A stretch of DNA of 64,000 bases from Yonghaparkia sp. Root332. Lineage in GTDB: Bacteria; Actinomycetota; Actinomycetes; Actinomycetales; Microbacteriaceae. Made by a program: the position numbers and the translations under genes. The DNA lies in the NCBI RefSeq assembly GCF_001425665.1, contig NZ_LMCX01000001.1:558001-622000 (forward strand), read 5' to 3'. The notes under the pieces are model-generated. The model was not told the DNA's origin. It saw nothing but the letters and a program-made list of their open reading frames with translations, and made no database searches. The stretch's first letter is position 1; the number at the start of each line of letters is the position of its first letter. Positions 37,137 through 42,436 of this stretch are shown here, one piece after another.

Positions 37137-38528
37137 CTACGGCTGGGCGCGGCGGAACTCCACCGTCGCGTCCAGCCCGCGCTCCGCTCGACGACCGAGC
37201 CGCACGCGCGCTCCGCTCGACGAGGCGAGCTCCTGCACGATCGCGAGCCCGAGACCCGTTCCGCCCGGTGTCGCCGATCGGCCCCGCCAGAAGCGGTCGA
37301 AGGCGCGGGCGATCTCGTCATCGGAGAGGCCGGGGCCGTCATCCCGCACGCGCAGCGTCGGGTTCGCGCCGCCATCGACCCGGACCTCGAGGGTCGACCC
37401 CGGGGGGCTCACCTCCAGTGCGTTGTCCACGAGGTTGTCGACGATCTGCTCCACCGCTCCCGGGATGGCGCGCACGGGGATCGCCGGCTGAGCGGGCACC
37501 GCGACCCGGAGGTCGACGCCGAGCTCGGCGCACAGCGGGCGCCATTGCTCGACGTGATCGCGCGCGATCGCGGCGAGGTCGACCGTGATCACCAGGTCGT
37601 CGCGGCGCTCGGCCCGGCCGAGCGCGAGCAGCCCCTCGACGATCGCGACCAGACGGTCGGTCTCCGCCTCGGCGGCGGCGATCCGGTCGGCGGCCGCCTC
37701 GGGATCGTTCGCCATCAGCTCGCGTGCGCGCTCGAGCCGGAGACGGAGCGCCGTGAGCGGCGTGCGGAGCTGATGCGAGGCATCCGAGGCGAACGATCGC
37801 TGCTGCTCGATGAGCGTCGAGACGCGCTCCGCCATCCGGTTGAACGACCTCGCGAGCGTGCGGATCTCGGGCGCCCCGAGCATCGGGTCGGCCCGCGCCG
37901 ACAGGTCCCCATCGGCGAGGCGCTCGCTCGAGGCCGTGAGGGCGGTGAGTCTGCGGGTCACGGAGGCGGAGAAGACGAACGCCGCGAGGCCGGAGATCAG
38001 GAGGGTGATGAGCGCGACGGAGCCGATCACGCCGAGCCGACCGCGAACCGTCTCGTCGATGACCGCGGACGGATATGTGAGCCGCACCGCTCCGACGACG
38101 CTGTCGGCGCTGATGACCGGCACCGCGACGTACAGCAGCGACGTGGATAGCGTCTCCGAGTCTCGGGATCCCGTCGCGACGGAGCCACCCAGGGCATCGG
38201 CGATCTCGGGGCGCGTGCTGTAGTCGCCGCCGAGGCTCGACTGGTCGTCGTCGCTCGTCACGATCGCGCGACCGTCGCGGTCGACGACCACGACTCGGGC
38301 GCCGCTCGTCTCCCGGTACTCGTGCGCGGCCTCCCCGAGCGCATCGGCACCGACGCCGCTCTCCAGCGCCTCCTCGCTGCGACCGGCGAGGATGAACGCG
38401 TCGCGCTCGAGACTCGTCGTGAGCCGATCGCGCTCGACCTGCTGCAGGTAGCTCGCGAGCGGCAGCAGCTGGACGAGCAGTACGATGCCGGTGATCGCCA
38501 TGACCACGCCGATGAAGTGCCACTTCAT
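37137..38528 (-). CDS. Sensor histidine kinase
   Basis: A 463-residue membrane kinase. TM1 is at 5-27, an extracytoplasmic sensor domain at 28-164, TM2 at 165-188, HAMP at 189-245, the DHp box SDASHQLRTPLTALRLRLER with His252, and an HATPase with NALEVSPPG, DDGPGL and GGTGLGLAIV. ATG 38528 overlaps the response-regulator stop. It forms a two-component pair with that regulator and is divergent from the ApbE redox operon, which is its likely target. It ends three bases from the convergent phosphatase-like gene. Confidence 0.92.
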   Translation of the reverse strand: MKWHFIGVVMAITGIVLLVQLLPLASYLQQVERDRLTTSLERDAFILAGRSEEALESGVGADALGEAAHEYRETSGARVVVVDRDGRAIVTSDDDQSSLGGDYSTRPEIADALGGSVATGSRDSETLSTSLLYVAVPVISADSVVGAVRLTYPSAVIDETVRGRLGVIGSVALITLLISGLAAFVFSASVTRRLTALTASSERLADGDLSARADPMLGAPEIRTLARSFNRMAERVSTLIEQQRSFASDASHQLRTPLTALRLRLERARELMANDPEAAADRIAAAEAETDRLVAIVEGLLALGRAERRDDLVITVDLAAIARDHVEQWRPLCAELGVDLRVAVPAQPAIPVRAIPGAVEQIVDNLVDNALEVSPPGSTLEVRVDGGANPTLRVRDDGPGLSDDEIARAFDRFWRGRSATPGGTGLGLAIVQELASSSGARVRLGRRAERGLDATVEFRRAQP

Positions 38529-39208
38529 GAGGGTTCGCCGAGGCGGAATCCGACACCGCGGACCGACTCGATCCAGGCGGGGTCTCCGAGCTTGCGCCGC
38601 ACGGCCGCCACGTGGGCGTCGAGCGTCTTGGCGGTTCCGAACCAGTCGGTCTCCCACACGTCGCGCAGCAGGTCCGAACGCCGGCACACGGCCCCGCGGT
38701 CGCGGTCGAGGTACTCGAGCACGTCGAACTCCTTCGGCGTCAGGAGTATCTCGCGGTCGTCCAGCCGCACGCGGCGCGTGCGTCGATCGATCGCGAGTCG
38801 GCTCGAGCCGGCAGGCGGGGGCTCCACCGGCGCGGCGGACCGCGCGGCCGACGCGGAGCGGCGACGCACGGCGCCGATCCGGGCGACGAGCTCGCGCATC
38901 CCGAACGGCTTCACGAGGTAGTCGTCGGCTCCGAGCTCGAGCGCCACGACGCGGTCGATCTCGTCGTCGCGCGCGCTCACGATGATGATCGGCAGCTCGC
39001 TCGAGGCGCGGACGCGACGGCACAGCTCGGTCCCGTCCATGTCCGGCAGGCCGAGGTCGAGGAGCACGACGTCCGGCTCCTCGCTCTCGATCGCGCGGAG
39101 CGCCTCGTCCCCCGTCGCCACCCGGACGACATCCATCGCGCGGGTGGAGAGCGCGTCGACGACGCTGTCCGCGACGGCGTCGTCATCCTCCACGAGCAGC
39201 ACTCTCAT
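38525..39208 (-). CDS. OmpR-family response regulator
   Basis: A 227-residue regulator: receiver domain with the acidic pocket EDDD (7-10), phosphoacceptor Asp51 in LLDLGLPDMDG and Lys in VKPF, then a winged helix (about 130-222) with LTPKEFDVLEYL and the RRKLGDP recognition region. ATG 39208 begins the conserved MRVLLVEDD; the open frame extends 34 residues further upstream without homology. Direct repeats in the divergent promoter are a likely binding site. Confidence 0.93.
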   Translation of the reverse strand: MRVLLVEDDDAVADSVVDALSTRAMDVVRVATGDEALRAIESEEPDVVLLDLGLPDMDGTELCRRVRASSELPIIIVSARDDEIDRVVALELGADDYLVKPFGMRELVARIGAVRRRSASAARSAAPVEPPPAGSSRLAIDRRTRRVRLDDREILLTPKEFDVLEYLDRDRGAVCRRSDLLRDVWETDWFGTAKTLDAHVAAVRRKLGDPAWIESVRGVGFRLGEPS

Positions 39209-39332: not shown

Positions 39333-39656
39333 ATGAAGACCTCGCTCTTGCTCTCCATCGCCGGTGTTCTGCTCGCCGCGGGCGGCGCCTACGCGGTCAA
39401 CACCGCCGTGCTCTCCTCCCCGTCGATCGAGACGATCGGCAATACCGAGACCGCCGCGGTGATCGTCCCCCACCAGAAGACCGTGCCGGGGACGCCCTCG
39501 CCGGGCATCCCCTCGTCGGGAGCGACCGCGACGGACGCCGGCCCCGGCGTCTTCGCGGACGACGACTATGACGAGGCCGACGACGCCCTTGAGTCGGGGG
39601 ACCGGGCGGACGAGGACGAAGCGGGAGACGACGATGAGCTCGGCGACGACGACTGA
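39333..39656 (+). CDS. Small exported acidic protein with SGATAT motif
   Basis: A 107-residue protein of no recognised family. Residues 1-25 are a signal peptide or anchor, 45-70 a Pro/Ser/Gly linker containing SGATAT (62-67), and 75-107 an Asp/Glu-rich tail. S-G-A-T-x-T/S is the core of the flavinylation site at which ApbE attaches FMN to threonine, and apbE is two genes downstream. The rest of an FMN-binding domain is absent, so the match may be chance or a minimal substrate. Acidic tails may also bind metal. First gene of the four-gene operon. Confidence 0.6.
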   Translation: MKTSLLLSIAGVLLAAGGAYAVNTAVLSSPSIETIGNTETAAVIVPHQKTVPGTPSPGIPSSGATATDAGPGVFADDDYDEADDALESGDRADEDEAGDDDELGDDD

Positions 39657-39999
39657 GCGGCACCCCGCGGCAGCGGCCCGGCGCATCGTCGCCGTGTCGA
39701 CCACGGCGCTGCTCATCGTCGGCGTCGCTGGCCTGCAGCTGCAGGATCAGGCGGCACAGGCCGACGGCCAGGCCTCGGCGCTGAAGGAGCGCGCGATCAC
39801 GCAGACCACGATCATCGGGGCACCCGGTCGGGCCGAGCCGAGCTCGAGCGAGTCGCCGGCGGCAGCCGCCCCCTCGGTGGCGAGCGCTCCGACGATCGCC
39901 GCGCCCGCGCCGACTCGCGCGCCTGTCGCGGCGACCCCTCCGCGCGCGCCCGCCCCGCAGCCGCGGGCGCCGGCCGACGCGACGAGTCAGGGATCATGA
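39634..39999 (+). CDS. Small membrane-anchored Ala/Pro-rich protein
   Basis: A 121-residue protein with a basic N-terminus, one transmembrane helix (about 17-35) and an extracytoplasmic Ala/Pro/Ser-rich tail. I start at ATG 39634 behind GGGAGA; it overlaps the end of the upstream acidic protein by 23 bases. No family recognised. The position between the acidic protein and apbE suggests a structural or tethering part of the redox system. Its stop overlaps the apbE ATG. Confidence 0.6.
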   Translation: MSSATTTERHPAAAARRIVAVSTTALLIVGVAGLQLQDQAAQADGQASALKERAITQTTIIGAPGRAEPSSSESPAAAAPSVASAPTIAAPAPTRAPVAATPPRAPAPQPRAPADATSQGS

Positions 40000-40943
40000 C
40001 CGCCGTGATCGCCGACGCTCGTCCCGCGAGCCGGCGCGACGATGTGATCCATCGGAGGTTCCGGGCGATGGGAACGCAGGGCTCGGTCGTCGTCGTCGGC
40101 GCACCGGCGGAGGTCGCGGCGGGGGCCGTCGAGGAGATCGCCCGCCTGGAGGCGCGCTGGACGCGCTTCCGCGCCGACAGCGATCTCATGCGGCTCGCCC
40201 TCGGCGCGGGGGCGGCGCACGCCGTCGATCCGTCGACGGTCGCGCTGATCACGGCGATGCGGGACGGCTGGCACGCGACCGGTGGAGACTTCGACCCGAG
40301 CGTTCTGCCCGCCCTGCTCGGGATCGGCTACGACCGCTCGCTCGTCGACGGCGCGCCCGCGCCGTCGCTGCCGCACGGTGCGCGCTCGCGGCACGATCTC
40401 GACCTCATCCGCATCGAGGGTGACGCCGTGGCGCTCCCGCACGGCATGGCTCTCGACCCCGGGGGGATCGGCAAGGGCCTCGCCGCCGACCTCGTCGCGG
40501 AGCGGCTCATCGAGTCGGGGGCACGGGGTGCCCTCGTCGAGATCGGAGGGGATGTGCGGGCGCGAGGCGAGTCTCCCGACGGTACGGCATGGCGCATCCG
40601 CGTCGCCGACCCCGTCGACGCCCGGACGGACGCGGCGCTCGTCCGGATCGTCGAGGGCGCCGTGGCGACCTCGAGCCAGCGCCGTCGACGCTTCCGGGGG
40701 GCCGACGGCGTCGAGCGCCACCACATCATCGACCCGCGCACCGGTGGAAGCGCCGACTCGTCCGTCCAGTCCGCGACCGTGATCGCCGCGACCGCCGCGG
40801 CCGCGGAGGTGCTCACGAAGCCGGCGTTCGTGCGCGAGCCCGGCGCGTACCTCGCATGGCTCGAGGGGCTCGGCGCCCAGGGCATGCTCATCGACGCCGC
40901 GGGCGCGCGGTCGACCACGACCGGATGGCAGGAGTTCTCATGA
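39996..40943 (+). CDS. apbE: FAD:protein FMN transferase ApbE
   Basis: A 315-residue ApbE. It shows the FAD-binding start FRAMGTQGSVVVVG, the DPGGIGKGLAADLVAE metal/FAD loop, EIGGDVRARG, and the C-terminal HHIIDPRTGG and TAAAAEVLTKPAF. ApbE transfers FMN from FAD to a threonine in exported or membrane proteins. No lipoprotein signal is seen, so it may act on the cytoplasmic side or be exported another way. It overlaps both neighbours, so it must be produced with the ferric-reductase-like protein that follows. Confidence 0.92.
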   Translation: MTAVIADARPASRRDDVIHRRFRAMGTQGSVVVVGAPAEVAAGAVEEIARLEARWTRFRADSDLMRLALGAGAAHAVDPSTVALITAMRDGWHATGGDFDPSVLPALLGIGYDRSLVDGAPAPSLPHGARSRHDLDLIRIEGDAVALPHGMALDPGGIGKGLAADLVAERLIESGARGALVEIGGDVRARGESPDGTAWRIRVADPVDARTDAALVRIVEGAVATSSQRRRRFRGADGVERHHIIDPRTGGSADSSVQSATVIAATAAAAEVLTKPAFVREPGAYLAWLEGLGAQGMLIDAAGARSTTTGWQEFS

Positions 40944-42436
40944 CCGACCCGCACCTGTGGTGGTACGTCACCCGCATCAGCGCGATGCTCGCCTGGATCG
41001 TCATGACGATCGCGGTGCTGTGGGGGATCGTCCTGTCGACCCGCATCTTCCGCGGCGCCGACAACCCCGCGTGGCTCCAGGACCTCCATCGGTTCCTCGG
41101 CGGAACCGCGGTGGTGCTCACCATCCTGCACGCGGTCTCGCTCATGCTCGACCCGTGGCTCTCGCTCACTCCGCTCGAGGCTCTGGTGCCGTTCGTCGGC
41201 GACTTCAAGCCCCTGCCCGTCGCTCTCGGCATCGTGTCGTTCTACGTTCTCGTCGCGGTGCAGTCGAGCTCCCTCCTGAAGGACCGCCTGCCGCGGCGGG
41301 TGTGGCGCGGGATCCATCTCTCCAGCTACGTCGCCGTGCTCGCGGTCGCCTTCCACGCCGGAGCGGCGGGCACGGATCGCGGCACCTGGTGGTACCAGGC
41401 GGTCGCGACCGTGCTCATCACGGCCACGGTGCTCGCCGCGATCGTCCGCCTCATCATGGCGGGGCGCCGGTCGGGCGAGCGGCCCGCGCCGTCGCATCCG
41501 ATCGATCCCCGAACGCGAACGCGGATGCGCGTGGTCGCGCTGGACGACATCGCCGACGGTGTGCGCCGCATCCGCCTCGCTCCCGCCGACGGCTCGTCGA
41601 TCGAGCCGTGGGAGGCCGGCGCGCACATCACCGTCGTGCTGCCGGACGGCGTCGAACGGCAGTACTCCCTCTGCAGCGACCCCGCCGACCGCGACCATCT
41701 CGACATCGCCGTCCGCCGCGTGGAGCCGGCCGGGCACGGCAGCGCGTGGATCCACTCGACGCTCGCGCCGGGCGACGAGCTCGAGGTCGTCGGGCCGCGC
41801 TGCACCTTCCCCCTGCGACCCGCGCACCGCTACCTGTTCATCGCCGGCGGCATCGGCATCACGCCGCTGAAGGCGATGATCGCGGCCGTGCCCCCGCAGC
41901 GCGACTGGCGGCTCGTCTACGTCGGTCGCAGCCGCGCGAGCATGCCCTTCGCCGACGAGCTCGAGCGAACCCACCCCGGTCGGGTGCGCGTCGTCGCGCG
42001 CGACGAGCGCGAGGGCCGGCTGCCGCTCACGGAGATCCTCGCGGACGACGCCGAGGTCTACGCGTGCGGACCGACCGGCCTCCTCGATGAGCTCGAGCGC
42101 CTCGTTCCCGCCGATCGCCTGCACCTCGAGCGGTTCGTCGCCGTCGATCGGAGCTCGGGGCGGCCCTCGACGCCGTTCGCCGTCCGGCTGGCCCGCTCGC
42201 AGCGGATCCTCCGGGTGCCGGCCGACGAGTCGATGCTGCATGCCCTGCAGCGGTCGGGCGTCGCGGTGCCCACCTCGTGCGGCACGGGTGTGTGCGGCAC
42301 ATGCGAGACGAGGGTCGTCGCCGGGGTGCCCGACCACCGGGACTCGGTGATGTCGGACGCGGATAAGGACGAGATCGGCGTCGTCTACCCGTGCGTGTCG
42401 CGCGCGAGTTCGGCGGAGCTCGTGCTCGATCTCTGA
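40940..42436 (+). CDS. Ferric-reductase-like membrane protein fused to 2Fe-2S ferredoxin reductase
   Basis: A 498-residue fusion. Residues 8-175 hold about five membrane helices with two His pairs, H50/H64 and H126/H139, spaced like the two-heme ligands of ferric reductases and NADPH oxidases. Residues 195-390 are a flavin/NAD(P)H reductase domain (RQYSLCSDP-type flavin motif, GGIGITPLKAM, YACGPTG). Residues 410-498 are a plant-type 2Fe-2S domain with Cys447, 452, 455 and 485. Electrons could pass from NAD(P)H through flavin, 2Fe-2S and heme to the outer face. The coupled apbE points to a flavinylated acceptor. Confidence 0.85.
   Translation: MTDPHLWWYVTRISAMLAWIVMTIAVLWGIVLSTRIFRGADNPAWLQDLHRFLGGTAVVLTILHAVSLMLDPWLSLTPLEALVPFVGDFKPLPVALGIVSFYVLVAVQSSSLLKDRLPRRVWRGIHLSSYVAVLAVAFHAGAAGTDRGTWWYQAVATVLITATVLAAIVRLIMAGRRSGERPAPSHPIDPRTRTRMRVVALDDIADGVRRIRLAPADGSSIEPWEAGAHITVVLPDGVERQYSLCSDPADRDHLDIAVRRVEPAGHGSAWIHSTLAPGDELEVVGPRCTFPLRPAHRYLFIAGGIGITPLKAMIAAVPPQRDWRLVYVGRSRASMPFADELERTHPGRVRVVARDEREGRLPLTEILADDAEVYACGPTGLLDELERLVPADRLHLERFVAVDRSSGRPSTPFAVRLARSQRILRVPADESMLHALQRSGVAVPTSCGTGVCGTCETRVVAGVPDHRDSVMSDADKDEIGVVYPCVSRASSAELVLDL

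Follow-up and report, generated by a model that had tools for sequence, protein, structure and literature searches.

A recurrent actinobacterial apbE operon with candidate flavin tags on two small, largely disordered proteins

Introduction

MsrQ-like flavinylation systems are broadly conserved in Actinobacteria (PMC8238504). In these clusters a ferric-reductase-like membrane protein, often with a nicotinamide adenine dinucleotide (NAD)-binding domain, is encoded beside apbE, and there is typically also a gene for a flavin mononucleotide (FMN)-binding-domain protein (PMC8238504). We have analyzed a related operon in a 64,000-nucleotide stretch of the genome of Yonghaparkia sp. Root332 (contig NZ_LMCX01000001.1, positions 558,001 to 622,000; hereafter the window, to which coordinates refer). 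Here a membrane protein of the same kind lies beside apbE, and two small proteins, which we call A and B, stand in place of the FMN-binding-domain protein.

The target sequence of ApbE has been defined as D-x-x-[S/T]-G-A-[S/T], in which seven residues are enough and the Asp is almost dispensable (PMC12052999). Changing the Gly to Ala or the Ala to Val cut labeling to about half, Ser was tolerated with lower yield, and tags performed best at the termini of the carrier protein (PMC12052999). In the survey by Meheust et al., 4% of the genomes with flavinylation (670) have apbE and no known substrate, and genes without a predicted signal peptide were discarded (PMC8238504); the ApbE of the window has no evident signal peptide.

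Results

The operon occupies positions 39333-42436 of the forward strand, where four overlapping genes confirm the arrangement proposed by an earlier, sequence-only reading of this DNA. Protein A (107 residues; 39333..39656) has an N-terminal hydrophobic segment, a linker and a tail rich in Asp and Glu (residues 76-107; 39558..39653). Protein B (121 residues; 39634..39999) consists of a single hydrophobic helix and an Ala/Pro-rich stalk. They are followed by ApbE (315 residues; 39996..40943), of the FAD:protein FMN transferase family (FAD, flavin adenine dinucleotide), and by a 498-residue fusion (40940..42436) of a four-His ferric-reductase-like membrane domain, FAD and NAD domains and a 2Fe-2S ferredoxin. 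Neither A nor B matches a Pfam family at an expect value (E) of 1 or less, and FMN_bind (PF04205) was found in 0 of 36 B and 0 of 35 A sequences scanned. Structure prediction with AlphaFold2 also gave no domain in either protein. The model of B is a helix at residues 11-60 and then coil; that of A has no confident fold, with a predicted local distance difference test score of 56.5, and is too poor for further interpretation.

The four genes form a recurrent actinobacterial unit, mostly beside a divergent response regulator. When 25 genomes of the genus were searched with this ApbE, five including that of the window had it at 50% identity or above, with the same gene order A, B, ApbE, fusion in all five. 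In 299 genomes of the family the ApbE clade is present in 35 (E ≤ 1e-70) and A in 41; ApbE occurs without A in one genome (G243), and A without the ApbE clade in seven. In the 34 genomes that have both, the two lie within 2.5 kb in every case. The profile for A was itself derived from such loci, and 23 of the 34 adjacencies are thus partly by construction; the remaining 11 genomes contributed no row to the profile, yet A adjoins ApbE there too. The grouping of A with ApbE exceeds chance. When 396 genomes of the phylum were searched at E ≤ 1e-50, a further 26 loci, more distant ones, appeared in addition to that of the window.

For counting, we dropped L043 and L044 (on the same contigs as L006 and L004), L064 and L065 (duplicates), L045 (A and B outside the locus) and L057 (apbE outside the locus). 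The loci retained numbered 49 in the in-group and 26 in the outgroup. The genomes with the in-group operon span at least 12 genera. B was read by script at 42 in-group loci, giving 40 distinct sequences. The other seven were L047 and L052 (too short), L074 (a run of N), L081, L085 and L092 (no separate B) and L067, which was missed by the position rule and whose B ends NGTTGGSGAVKP. A was likewise read at 42 of the 49 loci (40 distinct sequences; missing at L047, L052, L062, L063, L077, L083 and L088). The alignment of B held 36 of the 40 sequences with a chosen start (L073, L079, L080 and L090 left out), and that of A held 35 of 41 (L054, L073, L079, L081, L085 and L092 left out).

The most constant motif was found in B, which the sequence-only reading had passed over. 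Thirty-nine of the 40 distinct B sequences carry [ST].[GA]S followed by zero to four residues at the C-terminus, where a composition-preserving shuffle gives an expectation of 1.36; the sole exception ends TGTTKPSGG. The form [ST]G[GA][ST] ends 21 of the 40 (0.19 expected). The tag of the family may be written [NDSH][GA][TS][TS][GAS][GA]S. Over the 40 tails, the first position is N in 15, D in 7, S in 5 and H in 5; positions 2 to 4 are G or A in 40, T or S in 35 and T or S in 40; and positions 5 to 7 are G in 21, A in 9 and S in 5, then G or A in 39, and S in 40. This Ser is the only invariant column in the alignment of 36 B sequences. The corresponding tag in the window is DATSQGS (39976..39996), where the trailing GG of the family has been lost and Gln occupies position 5 of the motif; the B of the window does not match the relaxed motif [ST]G[GA][ST].

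The tag extends beyond the in-group. In the outgroup (26 loci), the gene that precedes apbE ends with [ST].[GA]S in 17 (1.3 expected), has Ser at one or more of its three final positions in 24 (8.2 expected) and has a terminal Ser in 17 (3.4 expected). At L105, L109, L110 and other outgroup loci this gene often encodes a different protein that is still Ser-terminal (TTTAPS is one such end), as though the tag were passed from one carrier to another. The C-termini taken as controls lacked the tag, with 0 of 75 for ApbE and 0 of 9 for FMN_bind-type proteins.

We considered whether signals in the DNA could account for the terminal Ser. The in-group uses only TCN codons for it, with all four third bases, and the outgroup has AGY in 20 of 25. 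A GGAGG sequence lies near the tag at 6 of the 40 loci of the in-group and at none of 25 in the outgroup, and so, from the codon usage and these counts, a ribosome-binding site fails to explain the Ser. In addition, the stop codon of B lies 31-82 bases ahead of the estimated start of apbE at 31 of 40 in-group loci. Taken with the shuffles, these data led us to reject both a ribosome-binding site and amino acid composition as the origin of the tag.

A related motif is present within A. The sequence-only reading had singled out SGATAT in this protein, and we confirm it at residues 62-67; its conservation was to be the check, and not one of the four congeners has literal SGATAT in its A sequence, which by the reading's own standard counts against it. 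The strict motif [ST]GA[ST] is weakly enriched, in 6 of 40 distinct A sequences (2.2 expected). The relaxed motif [ST]G[GA][ST] is present in 28 of 40 linkers, compared with 8.9 expected from shuffling the linker and 5.4 from a second shuffle, and the longer [DNH].[TS][ST]G[GA][ST] in 18 of 40 (0.34 expected). Where this relaxed motif is present (28 linkers), it lies no more than 15 residues from the acidic tail in 22. This is the place of IPSSGAT in the window (39507..39527), a candidate tag at the site of the DGTTGGS-type motif of the family. The window protein matches the relaxed motif, with SGAT but without the leading Asp, and has gained a canonical SGAT that is absent from its congeners.

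The motif is common to the two proteins. In a profile alignment A and B match at the motif only, over 17 columns, with a probability of 87% (E 4e-6). By the rules used, 24 in-group loci bear the motif in both A and B, and at least one tag is present at all 46 in-group loci outside L047 and L052, where nothing could be read, and L074, where A lacks the motif and B is masked by N.

The sequence-only reading had held that no FMN-binding domain exists here. This stands for the operon, since no gene for such a domain was detected within it or beside this apbE, in which respect it departs from the MsrQ-like pattern; for the genome (2.63 Mb) it does not, and we reject the notion that FMN_bind is missing from it. 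A second apbE is located about 340 kb from the window (L037:4368-7187), with an FMN_bind-like lipoprotein gene upstream (C1:937737-938186) in which VAGSSLTS is conserved. The lipoprotein was identified by reading that locus; it scores 13.8 bits against PF04205, below the threshold of 22, and has clear relatives. Searching the window genome with PF04205 returned nothing at E 1e-3 and two weak places at E 10, neither of them the lipoprotein. A profile built from the lipoproteins finds it with E 1e-69, a match that is by construction as the protein is a row of the profile. Profile comparison gave no relationship between B and these lipoproteins. Downstream of the second apbE is a reading frame that shows membrane segments together with a weak match for NAD binding, resembling Nqr/Rnf-like two-subunit systems; a search with NQR2/RnfD (PF03116) gave no match.

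FMN_bind was then surveyed in 31 of the 37 genomes with the operon (G215, G221, G250, G268, G287 and G329 left out). PF04205 at E ≤ 0.1 matches 25 of them and the lipoprotein profile 11, with 26 matched by either; for the window genome, the true FMN_bind-like protein was recovered by the lipoprotein profile only. Of the 32 PF04205 and 14 lipoprotein-profile matches listed, none shares a contig with this apbE at a distance of 40 kb or less. Five of the 31 genomes have no FMN_bind by either search (G222, G308, G194, G243 and G052). In G308, G194, G243 and G052, which are 94, 88, 77 and 82% complete, this ApbE is the only one and no FMN_bind was found.

The enzyme itself is a clear member of its family (PF02424, E 4e-55; 13 distinct Protein Data Bank sequences at E ≤ 1e-5), and the D-x-G-G-x-x-K-G and H-x-x-D regions are retained. 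The ligands of metal site 1 in E. coli ApbE are D280 and T284 (PMC4767422, Table 3). At the corresponding place the ApbE of the window has Glu271 and Lys275 (40806..40820). The same Glu and Lys are found throughout the in-group alignment, which holds 48 sequences (without L074); in the outgroup Glu is present in 25 of 26 and Lys in 14 of 26, and the second ApbE of the window genome retains Asp and Thr. Given this uniform replacement the chemistry of the enzyme may differ; the site may be either an adapted one or one of altered chemistry. An export signal, which is typical but not universal for ApbE, was not evident in this clade by a crude hydropathy scan and reading of the N-termini, and modification may therefore precede export.

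The fusion protein scores above the Pfam cut-offs for Fer2, FAD_binding_6 and NAD_binding_1 (PF00175), and slightly below the 28-bit cut-off for Ferric_reduct (PF01794; 26.9 bits, E 5e-6). His 50, 64, 126 and 139 and Cys 447, 452, 455 and 485 are invariant among five orthologues. Relatives of the fusion lie downstream at 46 of 49 in-group and 21 of 26 outgroup loci; named loci include Microcella, Cryobacterium, Salinibacterium, Galbitalea, Agromyces, Mycobacterium and Rhodococcus, and there are several bins, one carrying the label Acidobacteria. Upstream, on the reverse strand, is a divergent OmpR-like response regulator, its class named from its sequence (38525..39208), adjoined by a sensor histidine kinase (37137..38528), likewise named from its sequence. 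A divergent response regulator was found at 43 of 49 in-group and 9 of 26 outgroup loci; among the other in-group loci, L047, L052 and L088 are too short to reveal one, and L067, L069 and L089 showed none within about 1.47 kb.

Some loci depart from this arrangement. At L081, L085 and L092, in genus g62, the ApbE clade occurs, but B is missing and the fusion does not follow directly; A adjoins apbE there and bears two or more motifs. Three successive matches to the A profile lie upstream of apbE at G122:C4:43679-45076 and G184:C1:50944-52501, as if A had been duplicated.

Discussion

The comparisons establish, from sequence, a recurrent operon with a conserved tag on two proteins that have no detectable flavin-binding fold. 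We consider that the operon probably encodes electron export of the MsrQ-like type, with A and B as flavin tags on disordered stalks that are reduced by the fusion protein. In this mechanism two small, largely disordered proteins, each with one hydrophobic segment, would replace the usual FMN-binding-domain substrate. ApbE would move FMN from FAD onto the Ser (or Thr) that closes a short tag, located at the C-terminus of the Ala/Pro stalk of B and, for most relatives, also within the A linker ahead of the acidic tail. The fusion would take electrons from reduced NAD or its phosphate and pass them across the membrane to the outer face by way of FAD and, probably, a pair of hemes. There it would reduce the tethered flavins on the tails of B and A, and these would hand electrons to an acceptor outside the cell. 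The 2Fe-2S domain may serve on this route, and one could speculate that the acidic tail of A holds cations near the site.

We read the tag as a putative flavinylation site because of its resemblance to the known motif, its position, its occurrence in two neighbors of apbE, and the lack of any other adjacent substrate. The family motif and the ApbE target are of equal length, and both have Ser or Thr at position 4, small side chains at the next two positions and a hydroxyl residue at the end. The family motif differs in having Gly at position 6 and Ser last. The core idea of the sequence-only reading, a miniature substrate without an FMN-binding domain, thereby gains support, while the evidence from SGATAT fails as it was written.

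A number of observations weigh against this interpretation. The strict motif [ST]GA[ST] is present in B at the level of chance (2 of 40, with 2.0 expected), and we have rejected it as the motif of the family; the form D..[ST]GA[ST] is absent from all 40 B sequences and occurs in one of the 40 A sequences. The family tag has Gly in place of Ala and almost always Ser at the end, where published ApbEs favor Thr, and that of the window B is degenerate. The motif is missing from 12 of 40 linkers of A, including all four congeners. The Asp and Thr of metal site 1 are replaced in every in-group ApbE aligned. The sequences were already in view when the pattern [ST].[GA]S was formulated, and relatives do not count as independent observations. 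The outward-facing orientation of the tails is predicted from a reading of charges, and the four genomes without FMN_bind are incomplete. Flavinylation of A and B is put forward as a candidate reading.

Could the tag serve some other purpose? It might serve ApbE, the membrane reductase or another enzyme as a signal for docking, sorting or processing, the real substrate being an unlinked FMN_bind protein. A conserved C-terminus would equally suit a role in recognition, B shows no enrichment of the strict core, and most of the operon genomes surveyed, that of the window included, have an FMN_bind match. An unlinked FMN-binding protein as the only substrate had been named as the finding that would overturn the earlier proposal; such a protein is indeed present in the window genome, but it adjoins an apbE of its own, and no listed match is near the apbE of the operon. 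Moreover, four genomes have this ApbE only and no FMN_bind was found in them, and docking would not require an identical motif in the middle of A. We therefore regard this alternative as unlikely.

A second alternative is that only one of the two proteins is a substrate, the motif of the other being ancestral or serving a partner role. The window itself, with a degenerate tag in B and SGAT in A, is in keeping with this, as are its four congeners, where the reverse is seen, and the g62 loci, where A has two or more motifs and there is no B. Against it stand the 24 in-group loci with both motifs, and we judge it improbable. More doubtful still is the suggestion that this ApbE no longer flavinylates protein, acting for example as a FAD pyrophosphatase or on another nucleotide, with A and B as structural partners of the membrane reductase. 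Treponema has an ApbE that acts as a FAD pyrophosphatase (PMC4767422), and the Glu/Lys pair at metal site 1 and the lack of an evident signal peptide would be consistent with such a change, but this leaves the tag unexplained and sits poorly with the clear fold-level match to solved flavin transferases and the conserved regions retained. It is scarcely credible that the motif is an artefact, arising from low complexity or because overlapping genes carry DNA signals such as the apbE ribosome-binding site: A and B are of low complexity, their genes overlap or abut, the in-group Ser codons are all TCN and GGAGG is sometimes near, but the shuffles fall far short of the 39 tags observed, the codons and GGAGG counts of the outgroup disagree, B mostly stops well before apbE starts, and the motif of A is remote from gene starts.

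Returning to flavin tags on disordered stalks, the operon may represent a widespread actinobacterial class of ApbE substrates without a flavin-binding fold. These would be disordered, tethered to the membrane and flavinylated almost at the chain end by an ApbE that has the Glu/Lys site and no signal peptide, possibly in the cytosol before export, with the flavin as a swinging redox arm fed by the heme reductase. We hold the arguments for and against a class of this breadth to be evenly balanced. The data suggest that electron carriers can be made by placing a flavin on a loose tail rather than in a folded flavin-binding domain. If the tails are flavinylated, substrates of ApbE require no flavin-binding fold, and searches by domain miss them. 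In the literature searched, which left most subscription journals outside its scope, we found no report of ApbE substrates that lack a domain.

Several described systems come close. The DUF2271 and DUF3570 substrates are similar in that they lie beside an orphan apbE, lack FMN_bind and have conserved flavinylation motifs (PMC8238504). They are, however, named domains of about 135 and 420 residues with [S/T]GA[S/T], whereas A and B, as FMN carriers, match no Pfam family. The nearest precedent for a site on a tail is provided by the FMN_red proteins, in which flavinylation sites lie on an unstructured C-terminal extension (PMC11334425). That extension is attached to a folded flavin-binding domain and is predominantly from Firmicutes (PMC11334425), unlike A and B. 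Finally, the engineered flavin-tag is a seven-residue terminal tag that is flavinylated by ApbE (PMC12052999), like the tags proposed here. It was made in the laboratory with D-x-x-[S/T]-G-A-[S/T] (PMC12052999), while the operon would use a natural Gly/Ser variant; if its tails are flavinylated, flavin tagging in the laboratory gains a natural counterpart.

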